Positions 2,581 through 21,363 of a stretch of 27,566 nt of DNA are shown here, in pieces; position 1 is the stretch's first letter, and each line of letters starts with the position of its first letter. The stretch covers positions 1 through 27,566 of IMG/VR virus record IMGVR_UViG_3300037827_000056. One strand, written 5' to 3'. The position numbers and the translations under genes were made by a program. The DNA comes from a virus. Below the pieces are notes generated by a model that was not told the DNA's origin, made no database searches, and saw nothing but the letters and a program-made list of their open reading frames with translations.

Positions 2581-3082
2581 TCTGCCAGCGAAGATCGCAG
2601 CGGGTGAGAGCCTGTCCGAAGGCGTCGATTGCTCCGGCGGTCGCGTCGTGCGCATCACCATCCCTGACAACTACACCGAACACGCCACGCCGGTGATGAC
2701 GTTTCAGGCGTCAGCCGATGGCGTCAACTATCATGATCTCGTCAACGACGAAGGTCAGCAGGTCACGATCACCGCACGCATGGCGACGACGATCCACGTT
2801 GCGCAGGTGTGGACGATGGCGCTGGGCTGGATCAGGGTGCGATCAGGATCGAAGTCCAACGCGACACCGCAGACCGAAGACGTCGAGGTGATGATCTCGA
2901 TCACGCCATCGACCGCCGTCGTGTTCGGTGGTGGCGGCGCTGTGATCAGCGACACCGCGCCGCAAGGCCAGCCTGATGGCACGATCTGGTGGAATTCCGC
3001 AGAGGGTCCGAGTGCTGCGAAGCGGCTCTACGTGAAATACTTCGACGGAGATTCTTCGCAGTGGGTGGCTGCGGAGCAATGA
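2570..3082 (+). CDS. Small structural protein ending in an LWW fibre module
   Basis: A 170-residue protein. The ATG at 2570 is preferred because GGAGG lies just upstream (in GTGGAGGACAACG) and it leaves only a short overlap with the previous gene; an in-frame ATG at 2522 has no such site. Residues 1-120 look beta-rich (alternating hydrophobics, with SADGVNYHDLV typical of beta-sandwich virion proteins). The last ~45 residues form a module, ISDTAPQGQPDGTIWWNS ... FDGDSSQWVAAEQ, that recurs four times in the collagen-like fibre (4328-7591) and once in the repeat fibre (9164-12034). This suggests a virion-surface or fibre-associated role despite its position beside the gpF-like head gene. The function of the N-terminal part is unknown. 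Confidence 0.8.
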   Translation: MLANLPAKIAAGESLSEGVDCSGGRVVRITIPDNYTEHATPVMTFQASADGVNYHDLVNDEGQQVTITARMATTIHVAQVWTMALGWIRVRSGSKSNATPQTEDVEVMISITPSTAVVFGGGGAVISDTAPQGQPDGTIWWNSAEGPSAAKRLYVKYFDGDSSQWVAAEQ

Positions 3083-4146
3083 CGGGCTCGCGCGATCCCA
3101 CACGCAGCTTGAGCCTGCGCCGTGAAGGGCGCGGCAAGGTCACGCGCAAGGTGTTCGAGCTTCATCGCGGCATGCGTCAGGCTGTTGTGGACAGCGACAT
3201 CGCCGGGCTTCGAGGGCGTGAACCGACAATGTCCCGGATCAACTGGGGCGAAGCTGCAGAGCATCGACTTTCACGCAGTGACGCAGTGATGCAGGCCACG
3301 GTGGATACGGCGTTGCTCAATCCTCCGGACTGGCTCGGCGGTCTGATCGAGCGCGCGATCCTGAAGGGCGTTGAACAGGCGTCGCAGGAATTGCGCACGG
3401 AGCTTGCGATTGATCTCGGCGACGTCAACGCGGTGCACACGTTCGCGGTGATGAGCGAGGTCACCGGCATCGCCAATGAAACGATCCGACGTGCGCTGCG
3501 CCTGATCGGCGACGCGGTCGAGCGCAAGACATCGCCGGAAATCCTGATGCGTGATCTGCGCATCGTGCTGGAGAAGGTCACCAAGCTGCGGCTCAACATG
3601 CTGGTGAACACCGCAGTGGTGCGCGCGGTGAATGCTGGCAAGCTCGTTGCCTACAAGGATCAGGGCGTCAAGCAGGTCGGCGTCAATCCGGAGTGGATGC
3701 CGGTGCCGCACGTGCACGACGCGAAGAAGATCAAGGCTGGCGACATCGAGGTGTATGAGTGGGAGAGCGAGACCGCGTTTCTGCTTCGCTGCATGGAAGA
3801 GGTCGGCAACGAAAGCCAGTGCCAGTTGGTCTGGGACCTCGAAGCCGCAGACAGAGCGGCGGCACGAAAGAAGGCGGCGACGCGAAAGACGGCAGCGAAG
3901 AAGAAGGCGGCAAAGAAGAAATCCAAATCGAAGAAGGGTTTGTTCAGCCCTCCGGTGCTGGTGAATGTGCTGACGTCAGGCGATGATCGTGTCTGCGACG
4001 ATTGCAACGACATCGCCGCCGAAGGACCATACGACATCGACACCGCGCAAGGCCTGATACCAAGTCACCCGAATTGCAGATGCGCGTTCGTGCCGTTCGA
4101 TGATAGTCGATACGCTCCAATCGAAGAACAGGATGAGGAGTGGTGA
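3079..4146 (+). CDS. Phage Mu gpF-like head morphogenesis protein
   Basis: A 355-residue protein starting on an ATGA overlap. The C-terminal region carries the hallmark of the Mu F family (PF04233): VLTSGDDRVCDDCNDIAAEG followed by HPNCRC, giving candidate zinc ligands C306, C309, H330, C333 and C335. The central part (about 60-190) is helical, as in the family. An unusual insert at residues 259-287 is almost only Lys, Ala and Arg, resembling histone H1 tails, and sits directly before the zinc motif. The C-terminus is acidic. In Mu-like phages this minor head protein acts with portal and scaffold in capsid assembly and may enter with the DNA; here it is separated from the protease and capsid genes by about 11 kb of fibre genes. 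The family call is firm; the role of the basic insert is unknown. Confidence 0.9.
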   Translation: MTGSRDPTRSLSLRREGRGKVTRKVFELHRGMRQAVVDSDIAGLRGREPTMSRINWGEAAEHRLSRSDAVMQATVDTALLNPPDWLGGLIERAILKGVEQASQELRTELAIDLGDVNAVHTFAVMSEVTGIANETIRRALRLIGDAVERKTSPEILMRDLRIVLEKVTKLRLNMLVNTAVVRAVNAGKLVAYKDQGVKQVGVNPEWMPVPHVHDAKKIKAGDIEVYEWESETAFLLRCMEEVGNESQCQLVWDLEAADRAAARKKAATRKTAAKKKAAKKKSKSKKGLFSPPVLVNVLTSGDDRVCDDCNDIAAEGPYDIDTAQGLIPSHPNCRCAFVPFDDSRYAPIEEQDEEW

Positions 4147-4149
4147 GGT

Positions 4150-4335
4150 ATGTATCGAGGTCCAATCGATGAGGGCAAGGATCGTCAGCATCCAGTCAAC
4201 CCACCGTATCCTGAAGCAGAGGTGATGACTCCAGCGTTGTGGGTCACCCATCGTTTGCCGACGTGGTATCAACTCAGCGGCGTGCCACTTGTGCCACCGG
4301 CAACAGTGATACCGGAAGAACCGGATAATGGCTGA
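4150..4335 (+). CDS. Small proline-rich protein, unknown function
   Basis: A 61-residue protein with a good ribosome site (TGAGG) just before ATG 4150, three bases after the gpF-like stop. It is rich in Pro and aromatic residues ([20 protein letters not shown]), with no transmembrane segment. It overlaps the collagen-like fibre start by 8 bases, suggesting coupling. Short proline-rich proteins with PPYP and W-x-THRLP motifs are often found next to phage tail genes, but I do not recognise a named family. Confidence 0.65.
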
Positions 4336-7300
4336 TGGCAACTCACGCGCAACGATGCGTGGCTTCGTTGGTGATGGCAAGTTGCTACCCAATGAGGTGC
4401 CTGCCGATCCGCGCGTCTGGCTGATCAATCGACTGCACCGTGATGAGAACGGTGAGATAGTTCAAGAAGGCATCTTCTCGAACTACAACGACGACATCGT
4501 CATCGAGTCCGATCCGAACACTCTCGTTGGCCGCACCTCCCCAGCGAGAGGACCCGCTCAGCGCATCGTCGTCGCGAGTCCCCTGACGTTGCAAGACGGT
4601 GTGCTGAGCGGCACGCCCGGCGGTGAGCAAGGACCGCAAGGCCCGATGGGTCCGCAAGGTCCGCAGGGTGCGCAAGGTCCGAAGGGAGACAAGGGCGACA
4701 AGGGCGACACCGGCGCACCGGGCATGAACGGATCGCCGGGACCGCGAGGCCCGCAAGGTGAGCGCGGCTATCAGGGACCGAAAGGCGACAAGGGCGCGGA
4801 CTCAACAGTGCCGGGTCCTCCCGGTCCTGCAGGTCCGCGCGGTCAGCAAGGTGATGCTGGTCCCGCAGGCGAAGACTCAACGGTGCCGGGTCCGCCCGGC
4901 GCTGCAGGTGTTCAAGGTCCGCAAGGTCCTGCAGGTCCTGCAGGCGCTGCATCAACGGTGCCCGGTCCCGCTGGTGCTGAAGGCCCGCAAGGTCCGATAG
5001 GTCCTGCAGGTCCGGCAGGTGCAGACAGCGTCGTGCCCGGCCCGCCCGGCCCGACAGGCGATGAAGGTGCACAAGGCCCGCAAGGTTTGCCGGGTGCAGA
5101 CTCGACAGTGCCCGGTCCCGCTGGCCCGCAAGGTGTCGCTGGTCCGATGGGACCGCAAGGTGATCAGGGACCGGCGGGGCCGCAAGGCCTGACTGGAGAG
5201 AAGGGCGACACTGGCGACGCATCGACAGTGCCCGGTCCTGCCGGACCGCAAGGCGTCGAAGGTCCTGCAGGTGCGAAGGGCGATCAGGGAGTCGCTGGCG
5301 CGCAAGGTGAGCAAGGCATTCAGGGTGTGCCGGGCGCAGTCGGCGCAGAAGGCCCGCAGGGTTCGGTCGGTCCGCCTTCAACCGTGCCGGGTCCTGCGGG
5401 TCCGAAGGGTGATGCAGGCGCGCAAGGCGAGCAAGGCGTTGCTGGTCCGAGTGGACCGCAAGGCGTGCAGGGCGTGCAAGGTCCTGCAGGTGCGCAAGGT
5501 GAGCAAGGCCCGGCAGGTCCGCAGGGTCCGCCCGGCACAGGCGAGGGCGGCGGCGAGCAAGGACCGATGGGTCCGCCCGGTCCGCAAGGGCCGCCCGGCG
5601 TCGATGGCGTGCAGGGACCGCAGGGCGAACAAGGTGCCGCTGGTGCGCAAGGCCCGGCTGGTGCTGACGGCGCGGCTGGTCCTGCAGGTGCCGACGGCGC
5701 GAATGGAATTGATGGCGCACCGGGAGCGATAGGTCCGCCCGGCCCGCAAGGCGCGAACGGTCCGCGTGGTCCCGAAGGTCCGCAAGGCGTCGCTGGTGCT
5801 GACGGTGCAGACGGCGCACCGGGAGCGCAGGGACCGCAGGGACCGCAGGGGCCACAAGGCGCAGCGGGCGTCGCTGGTGCCGATAGCACGGTGCCCGGCC
5901 CGCAAGGCCCGAAAGGCGATCAGGGACAACAGGGCGCGCCCGGCGCTGACGGTGCGCAGGGTCCTGCAGGTGTCGCCGGTCCCGCAGGTGCCGACGGCGT
6001 CGACGGCGTCGATGGTGCGGAGGGTCCGCCCGGCGCTGATGGTGCTGACGGTGAGAACGGGCTCGAAGGTCCGCGCGGTCCGCAAGGCATTCAAGGCCCG
6101 CCCGGCATGGCGGGATCGCAGGGCGCGCAAGGTGTGCAAGGTCCTGAAGGTCCTCCGGGTCCTGAAGGTCCTGCGTCAACGGTGCCGGGTCCTGAAGGTC
6201 CGGCGGGTGTCGCTGGTCCTGTTGGTCCGCGCGGACCGCAGGGCATTCAGGGCATGCCCGGCGCAATCGGTCCGCAGGGTGAGCAAGGTGAGCAAGGCGA
6301 TCCCGGCCCGATAGGCCCGCAAGGCGTCGAGGGTGCGAAGGGCGAATCGGGATCGCAAGGCGAACAAGGCGAGATCGGCCCGGCTGGTCCGATAGGTCCG
6401 CAGGGTGACATCGGCCCGCAGGGTCCGCAGGGTGCGATGGGTCAACCCGGTGAGGTGCAAGAGGCACCCATCGACGGGAGAATCTACGGGCGCATCAACG
6501 CGACGTGGCAGGAGGTCATCCACGGCGAAGGCGGTGGAGGTGGCAGTGCACGTGTCACGATCTCCGACACAGTGCCGACGACGGCTGTGCATGGTGATCT
6601 GTGGTGGCAGTCATCGTCGGGCACGATGTTCATCTACTTCGATGATGGGTCGAGCGCTGCGTGGATTGTCGAAGCGCAATGGCCTGTCATCTCGTCGGAC
6701 TCTCCGCCGCAAGGCGTGCGCGATAACACGTTGTGGTTCGACACGCGCACGTGCGTGCTCTTCATTCGGCTGAACGACGGCACATCAACGCAGTGGGTGC
6801 AGATTGGATCGAGCGGTGGTGGTGGTGGAGGAGAAGGAACGCAGGGTCCGCCGGGTCCGCAAGGCCCACCGGGCGAGACAGGACCACAAGGTCCTGCAGG
6901 CAATGATGGTGCTGATGGCAGCGCTGGCGCTGATGGCGTTGATGGTGCTGATGGTGCTGTAGGTCCGCCGGGACCGATGGGGCCGCAAGGTCCTGCAGGC
7001 GGCGGCGGAGTCATAACATCAGATGCGCCGCCGGAGAATCCGATCGATGGTCAACTCTGGTTCGATACGCGCGTCGGCCAGATGTTCGTCTACTACGTCG
7101 AGGACGATGCGTCGTCTTCGCAATGGGTGGTCTCGAATGTTGGCGCTAACGGACCAAAGGGAGACACTGGAGATGCAGGTCCTCAAGGCGCAGTTGGTCC
7201 TGTTGGACCTGCAGGCGAGAAGGGTGACACTGGACCGGCTGGTGATGCAGGCGCTGATGGAATTGACGGTGCTGCAGGCGTTGCGGGTGAACAAGGCCCA

Positions 7301-7591
7301 GCGGGACCGGCTGGTGCCGATGGAGCGCAAGGACCTGCAGGTGCAGTCGGCCCGCAGGGTCCGCCAACCTACGCGCTGATCTCCGACGCTGCGCCGCTCG
7401 ATGCGCCGGATGGCTCGTTCTGGTGGCGCTCAAGCAATGGCGTGCTCTATGTTCGCTTCAATGACGGTGACAGCACCGCGTGGGTGCAGGCTGTTGCAAA
7501 TCCTGCGGCTGATATTGCGATGTTGACGAAGGCTCTGCAGAATGCGCTCGAACGCATCACTGCGCTGGAGGCGAAGATCGATGGGCTTTAA
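4328..7591 (+). CDS. Giant collagen-like tail fibre protein
   Basis: A 1087-residue protein. Residues 1-95 form a unique N-terminal head ending in [14 protein letters not shown] and a short beta segment, a hinge style common in phage collagen proteins. About residues 98-711 are Gly-X-Y repeats; shorter collagen blocks follow near 838-895 and 940-1014. The collagen contains nine S-T/V-V-P-G-P interruptions (eight STVPGP, one SVVPGP) that shift the triplet register. Four LWW modules (about bases 6550-6680, 6685-6810, 7010-7140 and 7375-7497) lie between and after collagen blocks, and the protein ends in a heptad coiled coil (ALTKALQ-type, [12 protein letters not shown]). Trimeric collagen-like shafts with globular interruptions are known in phage fibres; the exact position on the virion is inferred. 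It is the first large gene of the adhesion cassette. Confidence 0.9.
4611..6460 (+). repeat. Collagen-type Gly-X-Y coding repeat array
   Basis: About 1.85 kb of 9-base-periodic GC-rich sequence encodes Gly-X-Y with mostly Pro, Ala, Gln, Asp and Glu at X and Y. Codons vary enough between units that it is not a simple tandem DNA repeat. Nine STVPGP-type interruptions are spread along it, and one [10 protein letters not shown] break lies near base 5540. Confidence 0.9.
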
Positions 7592-14721: not shown

Positions 14722-15140
14722 CGATTACAACCAGCGTCGATGCGACGTGGCGGGTCGGGCGTGTCGAGATCGACACGCCCCACGACCACGACAAGGGCGG
14801 CACCGTGCGCGGTGTCGGCGAGGTGCTGATCTCTGAGCCCAGTGGCGCAAGCCTGTTCGGCACAGGGAAACCATACGGTGCAATTATGGGCGACGCCGTC
14901 GCGCGCAACAACGACGACGTGATCGACGACGAGGTCGAGGTTGCCGGTGGCACCTCGATCAGTTGGCGCACGATCATGGAAGCGATGCCGCTCTTCATCG
15001 AGAAGTGGCGCAGGGAGGACATCGATAATCCTCCGGTGAAGATTCTCACCAAGCCTGAAGCAGCGCCGCCGACAACCGTGCCTGACTACGGGGACTGGGC
15101 GGTCACTGGCCCCGATCAACTACCTCCGCCGAAGGTGTGA
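14718..15140 (+). CDS. Hypothetical phage protein
   Basis: A 140-residue protein on an ATGA overlap. The first half is beta-like (TTSVDATWRVGRVEIDTP ... GVGEVLISEPSGASLFGTG), the second half has a short helix (SWRTIMEAMPLFIEKWRRED) and a Pro-rich acidic tail. I do not recognise the family. It lies between the proline-rich protein and a membrane-anchored coiled-coil protein. Confidence 0.7.
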   Translation: MTITTSVDATWRVGRVEIDTPHDHDKGGTVRGVGEVLISEPSGASLFGTGKPYGAIMGDAVARNNDDVIDDEVEVAGGTSISWRTIMEAMPLFIEKWRREDIDNPPVKILTKPEAAPPTTVPDYGDWAVTGPDQLPPPKV

Positions 15141-15141
15141 G

Positions 15142-15408
15142 ATGCCAGACGGGATGAAGAGTTGGTTCAAGGAGAACATGGTTCTGGTCATGGCCCTGAT
15201 CGGTCAGGCATTGATCGCCGTGGTCTACATGACGAACCTTGAGTCTCGCGTGGCGACTCTGGAGAATCGCGGCTCTCCGCATCTCAACATTATCGACACT
15301 CGGCTGACGACGCTGGAGAAGCAGACCGAGAGTCAGGAAACTCGTCTTTCAAAGATCACCGACATCATGACGAGAGAGCTTCACATCTCTCCGGTAAAGG
15401 ACAAGTAG
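15142..15408 (+). CDS. Membrane-anchored coiled-coil protein, possible lysis-related
   Basis: An 88-residue protein whose residues 12-31 (NMVLVMALIGQALIAVVYMT) form one clear transmembrane helix, followed by a coiled coil (LESRVATLEN ... RLTTLEKQTESQETRLSKI). One TM helix plus a short coiled coil is the architecture of some phage holin-like, spanin-like or membrane-tether proteins. No endolysin is visible next to it, so the lysis reading is weak. It lies one base after the previous stop and two bases before the protease gene. Confidence 0.72.
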   Translation: MPDGMKSWFKENMVLVMALIGQALIAVVYMTNLESRVATLENRGSPHLNIIDTRLTTLEKQTESQETRLSKITDIMTRELHISPVKDK

Positions 15409-15410
15409 CC

Positions 15411-16598
15411 ATGCCCGATTTCACCGAGACGTTCGCGCTCGACTCCAAGATGTTCGCCGACGAGAATGGTCTGCGCGAGACCGGCGATGGCTACATGATC
15501 TGTAAGCCGCGCATCGCGCGCACCGGCATCCAGATTTATCAGGGTCGCGAAGTCGGTCGTCCTGATCTCAAGGAGGTCCGGGTCTATCGGCCTGAGACCG
15601 AAGTCTTCTCCGCTGATGCAATGTCGTCGCTGGCGCACAAGCCGGTCACAGTCGAACATCCGTCTGAGCCTGTCACCGCGAAGAACTGGCGCAAGTACGC
15701 TGTCGGTCGGCTCGACGACGAGATCGTGCGTGATGGAGAGTTCATCCGCGTGCCGCTGATCCTGATGGATGCGGAAGCCATCGAAGTGGTGAAGGGCGGC
15801 AAGTCGCAGTTGTCGGTCGGCTATAGCGCGCAGCTACAGTGGGCCGATGGTGTGACCAAGGACGGTGAGAAGTACGATGTCACGCAAACAGCGATTCGTG
15901 CCAACCACGTTGCGATCACCCATACCGCACGAGGTGGACCCAAGCTGCGTATGGGCGACAATGTTGATCATCAAAGGAGAACGAACATGGCTACCAGAAC
16001 GATCCAAGTGGACGGCATCTCGGTTGAAATGGAAGAGCGCGATGTGCAGGTCGTGGAAAGGCGTATCGCCAATCTTCAGAGTGAAGTTGCCGCCGCACAG
16101 GCAGCATTAGCGACTGCGCAGACCACCTCGCAGAACGACGTCGCTGCGGCGAAGACCGAAGCGGCGAACGCGAAGGCCGAAGTGCAGACAAAGCTCGCGG
16201 AGATTGCGACGCTGACGAAGCAGCTTGGCGATGCGAAGCTGACACCGGCGCAGATCGATAAGCTGGTGTCGGACCGCGCCGCCACGGTGACGCGTGCGAA
16301 GTCGATCATCGGCGATGCTCTCGTCATCGACGGCAAGACCGATGCCGACATGCGTCGTCAGGTGGTCAACTCAAAGATGGGCGACACCGCCAAGGACTGG
16401 AACGACGACATGATCGCCGCTTCGTTCAATACGCTGGCTGTGCTGCCTGACAGCGGCGGACACAACAGCCTCAATCACGTGATCGGCGTGATGCGCACCA
16501 ACGACACCGGCGGCGGTGATCCGCGCGCGAAAGCCTACAGCGAGTACGACGAGAACATCCAGAATCGCTGGAAGACTGCGGGCAAAGCGAAGGCGTAG
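15411..16598 (+). CDS. DUF2213-type prohead protease with C-terminal scaffold
   Basis: A 395-residue protein. Residues 20-185 match the DUF2213 (PF09979) phage protein pattern: SSLAHKPVTVEHP, AVGRLDDEIV, GGKSQLSVGYSAQL and NHVAITHTARGGPKLRM; H83, S135 and H166 are candidate catalytic residues. Residues 193-285 are an Ala/Glu/Lys-rich coiled coil and the rest an alpha-helical tail, as expected of scaffold. In related phages this protein matures the prohead and its C-terminus helps capsid assembly. An internal ATG at 15987 with a strong ribosome site would make the scaffold part alone. The gene precedes the cement and major capsid genes, the usual order. Catalytic assignment is inferred from conservation. 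Confidence 0.9.
   Translation: MPDFTETFALDSKMFADENGLRETGDGYMICKPRIARTGIQIYQGREVGRPDLKEVRVYRPETEVFSADAMSSLAHKPVTVEHPSEPVTAKNWRKYAVGRLDDEIVRDGEFIRVPLILMDAEAIEVVKGGKSQLSVGYSAQLQWADGVTKDGEKYDVTQTAIRANHVAITHTARGGPKLRMGDNVDHQRRTNMATRTIQVDGISVEMEERDVQVVERRIANLQSEVAAAQAALATAQTTSQNDVAAAKTEAANAKAEVQTKLAEIATLTKQLGDAKLTPAQIDKLVSDRAATVTRAKSIIGDALVIDGKTDADMRRQVVNSKMGDTAKDWNDDMIAASFNTLAVLPDSGGHNSLNHVIGVMRTNDTGGGDPRAKAYSEYDENIQNRWKTAGKAKA
15973..15980 (+). promoter_or_regulatory. Internal Shine-Dalgarno for nested scaffold
   Basis: AAAGGAGA lies inside the protease gene, with GGAG 7 bases before the in-frame ATG at 15987. It is as strong as any ribosome site between genes of this window, and falls exactly at the protease/scaffold domain junction. 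Confidence 0.75.
15987..16598 (+). CDS. Nested scaffold protein (internal in-frame start)
   Basis: Starting at ATG 15987 in the same frame as the protease gives a 203-residue protein. Residues 1-95 are a long coiled coil (VVERRIANLQSEVAAAQAAL, then AEVQTKLAEIATLTKQL), typical of phage scaffolds, and the C-terminal half is helical with a basic end. The start follows a strong Shine-Dalgarno and sits at the domain boundary. The arrangement mirrors lambda C/Nu3, where the scaffold is made from an internal start of the protease gene. Expression as a separate product is inferred, not shown. Confidence 0.72.
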   Translation: MATRTIQVDGISVEMEERDVQVVERRIANLQSEVAAAQAALATAQTTSQNDVAAAKTEAANAKAEVQTKLAEIATLTKQLGDAKLTPAQIDKLVSDRAATVTRAKSIIGDALVIDGKTDADMRRQVVNSKMGDTAKDWNDDMIAASFNTLAVLPDSGGHNSLNHVIGVMRTNDTGGGDPRAKAYSEYDENIQNRWKTAGKAKA

Positions 16599-16610
16599 TC
16601 ACTCGCCTTC
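16589..16610 (+). terminator. Hairpin overlapping the protease/scaffold stop codon
   Basis: GAAGGCG (16589-16595) and CGCCTTC (16604-16610) form a 7-bp GC-rich stem around an 8-base loop that contains the TAG stop. There is no following T-run, so an RNA-stability or processing element is as likely as a terminator. Confidence 0.4.
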
Positions 16611-16650
16611 ACCTGCTGATCAATTCAATTCCCAACAGGAGTTTACGAAC

Positions 16651-17262
16651 ATGACAGAACATCAAGCTAATCAGACGACCGCTGCACCTCCGCCGCGTGC
16701 AGCGACCGGGCATCCCGGTGACGCCACCAGAGTCGGCGACGCGAAGTTGCCGCAGACGAAGGCTGGCGCTGAAGGGCAACTCGTGCCTTCGCAGCGTGTG
16801 GTGCAGTCGGAGTTTCCGGAGCACATGAAGGCTGGCATTCCCGGCATGATCAACCGGATGGTGGACTACAACTCGGTGACGCGTTCGGCTGAAGCTATTG
16901 CGATTCCGGCGTGCCGCGCCGTGAGCCAGTCGCTGCAGAGCGACATCGGCGCGGTGCTCGGCGGACCGGAAGCGCAGTTCGTCGGCCTCACGATCCTCGA
17001 TCCGACGCTGATCGTCCCGCTCACCGTGAGCGGCACTCCGATTGATGCCTATCCGCCCTACACGAACATGGGCGTGCTGACGAAGGGCGAGATGTTTGCA
17101 ATCGCAGACGTCCCGACCACCGCTGGCGATCCGCTCTACTACGAGGCAGCGACCGGCATTCTCAAGAACCTTGCCGGTGTCGGTCCGGTGGCCGGTGGTC
17201 GCTGGAAGTACACGCGCGCTCCGGGCGAACTCAACGTCGTCCAGTTGGGCATCCAGACCTAA
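16651..17262 (+). CDS. Head decoration / structural cement protein (gp24-like)
   Basis: A 203-residue protein. ATG 16651 is chosen for AGGAG 9 bases upstream; an in-frame ATG at 16516 lies inside the protease gene. A disordered Pro/Ala-rich N-terminus (1-50) precedes the domain: PGMINRMVDYNSVTRSAEA, then PYTNMGVLTKGEMFAIADV and AGDPLYYEAATGILKN, a pattern of the phage structural cement / DUF2190-like head proteins that bind the capsid surface. Its place between protease and major capsid gene agrees. It is flanked by small inverted repeats in the gaps on both sides. Confidence 0.82.
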   Translation: MTEHQANQTTAAPPPRAATGHPGDATRVGDAKLPQTKAGAEGQLVPSQRVVQSEFPEHMKAGIPGMINRMVDYNSVTRSAEAIAIPACRAVSQSLQSDIGAVLGGPEAQFVGLTILDPTLIVPLTVSGTPIDAYPPYTNMGVLTKGEMFAIADVPTTAGDPLYYEAATGILKNLAGVGPVAGGRWKYTRAPGELNVVQLGIQT

Positions 17263-17315: not shown

Positions 17316-18272
17316 ATGAACTTCAACATGTTTACGAGAGACGCACAGCAAAGTGCTTACAACTTTGTTGTGAACCAGACGTCTGCGATTGAAACGCAGG
17401 TCGTCAAGATTCAGTATCCGGAAGTGCAGTATCCGGACCTCGTGCCGGTGGACACCACCACCGGCAACGAGTGGGTGAAGTCGATCACGTACTACTCACA
17501 AGACATGGTGGGTGCTGCGGATTGGTTTCACCACACCGCACTCGACGTGCCGCTGGCTGAACTGACCCGCGACAAGTTTGAGCGTGGGATCGAGATGGCG
17601 GCGATTGGTTATCGCTACACTCTCGAAGAGGTCGCAACGGCAATGAACACGCCGGGCCTCAACCTCACCGCAGACAAGGCGGTCGCTTGCCGCCGCGCCT
17701 ACGAGGAGTTCGTTGACAACATCGCATTGCGCGGTGCGCCAGCGAAGAACATGCAGGGCCTGATCAACTCGACGCAGGTCGCTGCAACGATGCTGCCCGC
17801 TGATGGTGCGACAGGCGGCACCGAGTTCGCGGATAAGACCAACGAACAGGTCATCCGCGACATCAACAGCGCGATGATGGGAATCGCGCAGGGGACCAAC
17901 TGGCTCTACTACGCCGACACGGTCCTGCTTCCACCGGCGGTGCTTCTCGGGCTCGCCGGTCGCGTCATCCAGTACACGAACACGACGTTGCTGGAGTGGA
18001 TCAAGCAGTACAACGTCCTCACGGTGCAGACCGGCGCACCGATCACACTGATGGGCGTTCGTGGTCTTGAGACCGCAGGCGTCGGCGGCACCTCGCGCAT
18101 GGTGACCTATCGCCGCGATCCGCAGGTGCTGAAGATGTGGATTCCGATGGCTCATCACTTCCTGCCGGTGTGGCAGCGTGGGCCGTTGGTGTTCGACGTG
18201 CCCGGCATCTTCCGTCTCGGCGGAGTCGAGGTGCGCATGCCCGCAGCGATGCGGTACAGCGACGGCTGCTGA
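17316..18272 (+). CDS. Major capsid protein (DUF2184 type)
   Basis: A 318-residue protein with AAGGAGG before ATG 17316, one of the best ribosome sites here, as expected for the most abundant virion protein. The sequence follows the DUF2184 (PF09950) capsid family: an N-terminal arm, then VDTTTGNEWVKSITYYSQD, an alpha/beta middle (ERGIEMAAIGYRYTLEEVAT, RRAYEEFVDNIALRG) and a C-terminal beta part ending in FRLGGVEVRMPAAMRY. Length is typical for the family, whose members adopt the HK97 fold. It follows protease/scaffold and cement protein and precedes connector genes, the standard head order. Confidence 0.92.
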   Translation: MNFNMFTRDAQQSAYNFVVNQTSAIETQVVKIQYPEVQYPDLVPVDTTTGNEWVKSITYYSQDMVGAADWFHHTALDVPLAELTRDKFERGIEMAAIGYRYTLEEVATAMNTPGLNLTADKAVACRRAYEEFVDNIALRGAPAKNMQGLINSTQVAATMLPADGATGGTEFADKTNEQVIRDINSAMMGIAQGTNWLYYADTVLLPPAVLLGLAGRVIQYTNTTLLEWIKQYNVLTVQTGAPITLMGVRGLETAGVGGTSRMVTYRRDPQVLKMWIPMAHHFLPVWQRGPLVFDVPGIFRLGGVEVRMPAAMRYSDGC

Positions 18273-19824: not shown

Positions 19825-20750
19825 GCATCACACGCATGCTGACACGGATGGCGGCTGTGGCCGCGTTGCGCGGATCGACGTGGGCTGATGATCGCGTGTT
19901 CGACTCCGACAATACGCCGCTAAGCCAAGCGCTCACGCTGAACGCTGCGGCGAAGCCTTACATCGTGGTCTATACCGACAGCGACAGCCGGATGGATCAG
20001 AACGGCACCGACGTCTACGGCATGACGCGCGAACTCAATCTGGTGCTGGAGATCGGCGTCGCGTCTAAGATCGAGGGCCAGACCGGCGAGGAGACGATCA
20101 AGACGCCGCTGACCGACGAAGGCATGGAGATCGCGCTCGACATGGTTGAAGAGCAAGCGCTCGCTGCGTTGTTCGGCGACGCACAGTCCGGCTGGTCCGA
20201 ACTGCTGAAGAGCTTGGTCCTGCGGGTGCAGCGTGTCGCTGGCCAGCGCGGTGCAAGTGCTGATCGAGATCGCAGGTGGGCGGCGCGTCAGTTGTCGATT
20301 GTCTGCGACGTGGTGAGCGATCTCCCGCACGGTGTGCCGGTGCCGCACGATCATCCGATCCAGTTGTTCATTCGCACGTCGAAGGATTATCCGGATGCAG
20401 GGATGGAGCCTATCGCGGAAATCTGCAGGGCGCTGACTGGCGCGCGGGTTGCGCCGAAGTGGGAGCAAGTGCAGGCGGTGTTCGGCGTCAGGCGCATCGG
20501 TCTTCGCGCGGCTGGTCTCGCGCCATTGTCCGCCGGTCCGCTGTCTCGGTTCGCAACGATGCATGGTCCCGACCTCACGGACCCGAAGGGCGAGGCACCG
20601 ATCCTGCGCGAGATCGGCGCAGATGACTTCGACTGGGAGCCCGATCCGAGTATCGGTCTGACAGAAGAGAGAACGATCTCGACCAACGTCGGCACCGTCG
20701 AGCCGAAGGAGAAGAAGGACAAGGTCGAGATGGGCGATGCTGAAGATTAA
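19821..20750 (+). CDS. Putative neck / tail-terminator-related protein
   Basis: A 309-residue protein starting on an ATGA overlap. The N-terminal half resembles tail terminator or completion proteins: RMAAVAALRGSTWADDRVFDSD, then KPYIVVYTDS and TRELNLVLEIGVASKI. A long helix (IALDMVEEQALAALFGD) and a second alpha/beta half follow, with an acidic/Lys tail (EPKEKKDKVEMGDAED). It overlaps the gpZ-like gene by 14 bases. The order adaptor, small beta protein, stopper-like, this gene, gpZ-like fits a neck module. Function is inferred mainly from position and the N-terminal pattern. Confidence 0.75.
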   Translation: MSITRMLTRMAAVAALRGSTWADDRVFDSDNTPLSQALTLNAAAKPYIVVYTDSDSRMDQNGTDVYGMTRELNLVLEIGVASKIEGQTGEETIKTPLTDEGMEIALDMVEEQALAALFGDAQSGWSELLKSLVLRVQRVAGQRGASADRDRRWAARQLSIVCDVVSDLPHGVPVPHDHPIQLFIRTSKDYPDAGMEPIAEICRALTGARVAPKWEQVQAVFGVRRIGLRAAGLAPLSAGPLSRFATMHGPDLTDPKGEAPILREIGADDFDWEPDPSIGLTEERTISTNVGTVEPKEKKDKVEMGDAED

Positions 20751-21363
20751 TGTCGATACGAGCGAGCTTGTCGAGTTCGTCGGTGCGCTCGACAAGGCGC
20801 AGAAGCTGACAACGCCGCTGATCGCGGCAGGTCTCAACGAAATGGGCGACGCCGTCTCATCCCTGATCGCGCAGAGCCTGTCGAAGCAAAGCGGTCTACC
20901 GCTCGAACAGGTGCGCGGTGTGATGGACATCCGTCGAGCCACGCGCGGCAACATGCGGTACGAGATCAAGGTCGATCCCGACTTGATGGAAGGCAAGCCG
21001 ATGCAAGATGGCGGTCGCGAGCGCACCGACTTTCTCGGTAAGACAAATCCATCAATGATGGTGATCGTGGTCTCGAAGCAGGACGAACTGGTTTGCATGG
21101 ACTGCGAGGAGCTTGCCGCCGCCGGGCCGATGCCGATGAGCGTTGCGATGCAGCACGTGCCGAAGCATCCACACTGTCGCTGCATCATCATGCCCTACGT
21201 GCAGAGGGGCAAGCGCATGCCGGTGACGATGACGACGCTGTCAGGCACCAGCGCAAGCAAGCGGATGGGGTCGCAGTCGCTGGACGTCGATCTGACATTG
21301 CGACAGATGGCGCAGAAGATTCTCGACAGCACGTCGAACAGCATCAAGATCGAATTGTCATGA
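20737..21363 (+). CDS. Minor tail protein Z-like protein with a gpF-type zinc motif
   Basis: A 208-residue protein. Residues 1-85 have the style of tail completion / minor tail protein Z families: VDTSELVEFVGALDKAQKLT, ALNxxG-like LNEMGDAVSSLIAQ, SLSKQSGL and VMDIRRATRG. Residues 117-155 then carry CMDCEELAAAG and HPHCRCIIMPY, giving C120, C123, H144 and/or H146, C147 and C149, very like the zinc site of the gpF-like protein at 3079. The remaining C-terminus is an amphipathic helix (TLRQMAQKILDSTSNSIKI). The combination suggests a domain insertion or shared zinc knuckle in a tail completion protein. Both halves are pattern matches; zinc binding is not shown. Confidence 0.8.
   Translation: MLKINVDTSELVEFVGALDKAQKLTTPLIAAGLNEMGDAVSSLIAQSLSKQSGLPLEQVRGVMDIRRATRGNMRYEIKVDPDLMEGKPMQDGGRERTDFLGKTNPSMMVIVVSKQDELVCMDCEELAAAGPMPMSVAMQHVPKHPHCRCIIMPYVQRGKRMPVTMTTLSGTSASKRMGSQSLDVDLTLRQMAQKILDSTSNSIKIELS

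Follow-up and report, generated by a model that had tools for sequence, protein, structure and literature searches.

Nested protease and scaffold genes in described systems

The nested design, in which a head maturation protease and a scaffold share one gene region, is already known, and several described systems bear on the DUF2213 locus reported here. In phage lambda, the protease gene C contains the scaffold Nu3 nested in frame at its 3' end, the arrangement also predicted here, although the Shine-Dalgarno (SD) sequence of Nu3 is weak at the start as annotated (-2.7 kcal/mol, against -8.7 kcal/mol at our locus). Lambda C (L121:933 and L121:1143, C/nu3) also contains an in-frame ATG at codon 309 with a very strong SD sequence (-10.8). 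In phage Mu, the I protease and the Z scaffold lie in one frame, and the annotated Z site (AGGAG...ATG at codon 179, -7.4) gives the same layout as in our gene. An internal site has also been described for Pseudomonas Mu-like phages, including a Val-codon version in PaMx73 (PMC4378225).

In herpesviruses (UL26/UL26.5), a protease of the fold predicted here is fused to a scaffold and accompanied by a co-terminal free scaffold; the free form, however, comes from a separate gene, UL26.5, whereas the conserved element at our locus is a ribosome-binding site, and the likeness is that of the protease fold. The fusion-derived VP21 of HSV-1 accounts for about 10 % of total scaffold (PMC12474303). T4 gp21 offers the closest solved fold; in T4 the scaffold is a protein of its own, gp22. 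An essential short form of gp21 starts at the internal Met45 (PMC9026906), but this is truncated protease protein and not a scaffold, unlike the nested product considered here. P2 gpO is a fused protease-scaffold form without a strong internal site. No report of a near-universal internal start in DUF2213 phages was found in the literature searched, with most subscription papers lying outside it, and the passages found in one paper dealing with DUF2213 (PMC8770471) do not mention an internal start.

The protease-scaffold gene and its internal site

The window analysed is the stretch of 27,566 nucleotides of viral DNA taken from IMG/VR record IMGVR_UViG_3300037827_000056. Its head module contains the following features.

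15411..16598, + strand: full-length open reading frame (ORF), joining a DUF2213 head maturation protease to a putative scaffold (395 aa, 43 kDa)
15477..15959, + strand: protease domain, residues 23-183 (PF09979)
15960..15986, + strand: linker, residues 184-192, disordered (pLDDT <50 at 186-193) and differing in length between relatives, in which the internal ribosome-binding site lies
15973..15980, + strand: internal SD sequence AAAGGAGA (-8.7 kcal/mol to the anti-SD)
15987..16598, + strand: nested putative scaffold ORF from ATG 15987 (MATRTIQVDG...), sharing its stop codon with the protease ORF (203 aa, 21.6 kDa, predicted)
16651..17262, + strand: structural cement protein, the next gene of the head module (PF22758, 9e-19)
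17316..18272, + strand: major capsid protein of the DUF2184 type (PF09950 Major_capside, 1e-73), with which the scaffold presumably pairs

The 395-residue ORF matched PF09979 (DUF2213) over residues 23-183 at 6e-50 (169.9 bits, with a curated cut-off of 22) and phrog_530 at 2e-91. The order of protease, cement and DUF2184 capsid genes is the same in Pam3, RHEph04 and PB1, and Pa193 gp24 (a Pbunavirus; gp22 in PB1), Pam3 gp5 and T1 gp50 are members of the same family located before the cement and capsid genes.

The internal site lies in the sequence ATCAAAGGAGAACGAACATGGCT. The initial annotation had placed AAAGGAGA at 15973-15980 with an in-frame ATG at 15987, and both coordinates and frame proved exact, the distance from 15411 being 576 nucleotides (3 x 192), which makes the ATG codon 193 of 395. 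It had further described the site as lying at the boundary between the DUF2213 protease and the scaffold and as being as strong as true gene starts. Both descriptions hold: the PF09979 match ends at residue 183 and disorder at 186-193 is followed by a hairpin and a helix, while in anti-SD pairing energy the internal site falls between the starts of the major capsid gene (-11.4 kcal/mol) and of the next gene (-6.9), with the protease start weaker at -5.3. The expected product of about 22 kDa likewise agrees with the size predicted for the nested ORF. Amongst 191 in-frame internal ATGs in the genes of the window, eight have a correctly spaced SD sequence at -6.5 or better, and three of these lie no more than 17 codons away from an assigned start. 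The RNA around the site is less folded than expected from shuffled sequences, 186 of 200 shuffles folding at least as well.

An AlphaFold2 model built with 57 sequences (mean pLDDT 84.7) shows a confident beta-rich protease domain, the disordered segment, a hairpin at 195-208 and a helix of 67 residues at 209-275, and the nested product modelled alone gave the same prediction as within the full-length protein. On structural comparison, the modelled protease domain shares the T4 gp21/herpesvirus assemblin fold, with T4 gp21 (5jbl_A) at Z 11.7 over 128 residues and 2.5 A and the best of the assemblins (4v08_A) at Z 8.7 over 118 residues and 3.2 A; Foldseek support for this fold is weak (best E 0.002). 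His83, Ser135 and Asn165-His166 are invariant in the 57 sequences, and H83, S135 and H166 are candidates for a Ser-His-His site. Homology to Mu I was undetectable (hhalign probability 0.2 %); the Mu protease matches only PF10123 (Mu-like_Pro), a family that our ORF does not match. The analogy with lambda C/Nu3 drawn initially stands as regards the way the arrangement works but not as regards family membership, since lambda C is annotated as S49 and the protease here is a DUF2213 protein of gp21/assemblin-like fold, not of the S49/ClpP type. Herpesvirus UL26/UL26.5 and Mu I/Z are therefore the closer parallels.

Fold searches with the model of the scaffold part retrieved only coiled-coil look-alikes. 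The family profile matches Pa193 gp24 (PDB 9b40) at 4e-17; the match is strongest in the protease half, with the scaffold half aligning only poorly, and the scaffold role suggested for the C-terminal part is based on homology to this protein. Inside the Pa193 capsid, below the five-fold vertices, residues 286-326 of gp24 were observed as a helix-turn-helix pentamer; the authors called the protein a putative scaffold and could not say if it is cleaved (PMC11042391). As the internal start of PB1 is at codon 182, the visible Pa193 fragment would, by homology, fall within the nested product.

Conservation of the internal site

Amongst 16 close relatives from IMG/VR (63-96 % identical), the internal Met is invariant, although the preceding linker varies in length and sequence. 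GGAG is present in all 16, while its reading changes between AGG-AGA (Arg-Arg) and AAG-GAG or CAG-GAG (Lys/Gln-Glu), so that at this range the nucleotide signal is retained as the protein reading changes. In IMG/VR record 3300045141_000061 (L106), the linker between protease and scaffold is expanded to about 80 residues and the SD sequence and ATG are still found just before the scaffold hairpin. Genome contigs searched with the protein yielded no relatives.

A wider set of 80 non-redundant sequences was collected by a profile scan and from annotated phages. Considering windows of 20 residues, an in-frame ATG with an SD sequence was found at the junction in 73 of 80, against at most 12 in any window without the junction site; with a weaker rule that takes the first ATG, mean pairing was -6.8 kcal/mol, compared with -2.1 for 563 other in-frame ATGs. 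After three added scans, which took T1-like, Pbunavirus-like and CP-T1/Jedunavirus-like sequences as their seeds, the set numbered 357 proteins, of which 144 remained at <80 % identity. Here a site was scored where an in-frame ATG or GTG with an SD core 3-11 nt upstream was present at the junction. Counting ATG only, 132 of 143 genes carry the site, as against 7-16 in six windows of equal size from the same genes, and GGAG cores occur at the junction in 69 (0-3 in such windows). Synonymous recoding (100 trials) gave a mean of 80 sites and a maximum of 88 for the 132 observed, and a mean of 24 and a maximum of 36 GGAG cores for the 69 observed. A chance origin of the site is ruled out by these window controls together with the recoding. 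That the null is as high as 80 in 143 reflects the abundance of Lys, Glu, Gly and Arg codons in the linker, and part of the SD signal therefore follows from composition.

The initial annotation had held that lack of conservation of the site in relatives would speak against it. In this comparison, once GTG was admitted and the window lengthened slightly, the site was found to be kept in 136 of the 144 non-redundant relatives (133 with ATG and three with GTG, where the protein reads Val; one of the 144 is cut by a contig end). The Met is thus retained at 133 of 136 sites while neighbouring residues vary. The spacing between SD sequence and start has its mode at 7-8 nt, all three codon phases are used by the SD sequence (58/43/35), and the peptides encoded over it are almost all different (RR, KE, QE, KGD, GGH). 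The three phases, the differing peptides and the variable linker lengths show that it is the nucleotide signal itself that is kept. Constraint at the protein level alone is ruled out by the phases, the peptides and the GTG variants, composition accounting for a part.

Of the eight relatives in which no site was scored, one (L357) is cut by its contig end. The clearest absences amongst the other seven are L222 and Escherichia phage GJ1 (Chaseviridae; L028), whose DUF2213 protein has no internal ATG or GTG with an SD sequence at the junction; L018, L058, L063, L191 and L295 have a weak SD sequence or none. The architecture can thus work without an internal site. No relative with split genes was seen; the ORF stops shortly beyond the protease domain in only four cases, of which L357 was confirmed to end near its contig end. 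The reading frame otherwise continues far beyond the junction, save in a small number of short ORFs apparently cut by contig ends. A C-terminal WK motif, present in some scaffolds, was dropped as it occurs in only 42 of 144.

Amongst named phages, the internal start is at codon 209 in T1, 213 in a Klebsiella Webervirus, 193 in Vibrio CP-T1, 182 in Pseudomonas PB1, 195 in Escherichia WFC and 191 in Pseudanabaena Pam3. The site in PB1, Pam3 and T1 is of the same kind as ours, and in all examined records of site-bearing phages a single protein is annotated with no internal start. Amongst 22 annotated phages, 16 have an internal SD sequence stronger than the one at the protease start (mean -7.1 vs -5.0; Wilcoxon p 0.014). 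With the full protein as query, tblastn matched 1,502 phage records, mostly through the protease half, the site being scored in sampled records only. The scaffold part alone matched 13 phages and hit only DUF2213 genes.

A two-product reading and its alternatives

On these observations from sequence, the protease gene very probably has an additional in-frame start from which the scaffold is made as a separate protein. At a probability of about 0.88, we propose that one gene yields, from two in-frame starts, a little protease-scaffold fusion and more of a free scaffold of about 21.6 kDa. Ribosomes starting at 15411 would produce the fusion, and those binding AAAGGAGA would start at ATG 15987 and make the scaffold alone, comprising the hairpin, the long coiled-coil helix and a helical tail; both products would end in an identical C-terminus. 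Having the stronger ribosome-binding site, the free scaffold is probably made in excess, and by analogy a ratio of fusion to free scaffold like that of HSV-1 is plausible. The free form would co-assemble with the DUF2184 capsid protein, and the fusion would join the procapsid through its identical scaffold part and so bring a few protease copies inside, where the protease may later cleave the scaffold so that DNA can enter.

The alternative that survives best, which we consider improbable, is that only the fusion is made and autocleavage in the linker frees the scaffold, as for P2 gpO or at the herpesvirus R site, the SD sequence and ATG being by-products of a charged linker. The predicted disorder of the linker, the fused P2 gpO with no strong internal site and the core that recoding alone still yields in about 80 of 143 genes are consistent with it, but the conserved Met with its three GTG counterparts, the spacing and the excess over the recoding null are left unexplained. 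Autocleavage and an internal start are also not mutually exclusive. SD-like motifs within genes can pause ribosomes, and the position of the site exactly between two domains might fit a translational pause or a frameshift-stimulating element with no start; however, pausing would not require an ATG at a set distance, nor would it account for a Met kept amid varying neighbours, and the frame open past the junction makes a frameshift unneeded, so this is very unlikely. Equally unlikely is a separate internal transcript as for herpesvirus UL26.5, whose output would be functionally equivalent and whose partner protease shares the fold, since the conserved element is a ribosome-binding site and no sigma-70-like promoter, the type searched for, was found in 15100-16700.

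Extending the two-product reading beyond this locus, it is likely, though less so than for the gene itself, that nearly all phages of the DUF2213/DUF2184 type, a group with >1,500 deposited genomes to which T1 and therapeutic Pbunaviruses belong, produce by internal initiation a free scaffold that is missing from their annotation, as a phage counterpart of UL26/UL26.5 with the same protease fold. If so, the nested design would either go back to the ancestor of that protease lineage or have been invented repeatedly, and a herpesvirus-like arrangement with a phage protease that shares the fold makes the question of ancestry testable. It would also name the missing scaffold in a large group of phages including the classic T1 and the Pbunaviruses used in therapy, predict an unannotated protein in many deposited genomes and offer a means of supplying more scaffold than protease. 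For the scaffold fragment observed in the Pa193 capsid, it would provide a possible source other than full-length gp24.

Apart from this gene, a 1087-residue tail-fibre-like protein consisting largely of collagen triple-helix repeats is encoded at 4328-7591, and further tail-fibre genes extend to about 12034, an unusual place for fibres between the head morphogenesis and protease genes. A short Cys/His-rich module is common to two distant genes, those of a MuF-like head morphogenesis protein (2989-4146) and a Minor_tail_Z-like protein (20737-21363), with 39 % identity over 54 aa (E 4e-14).
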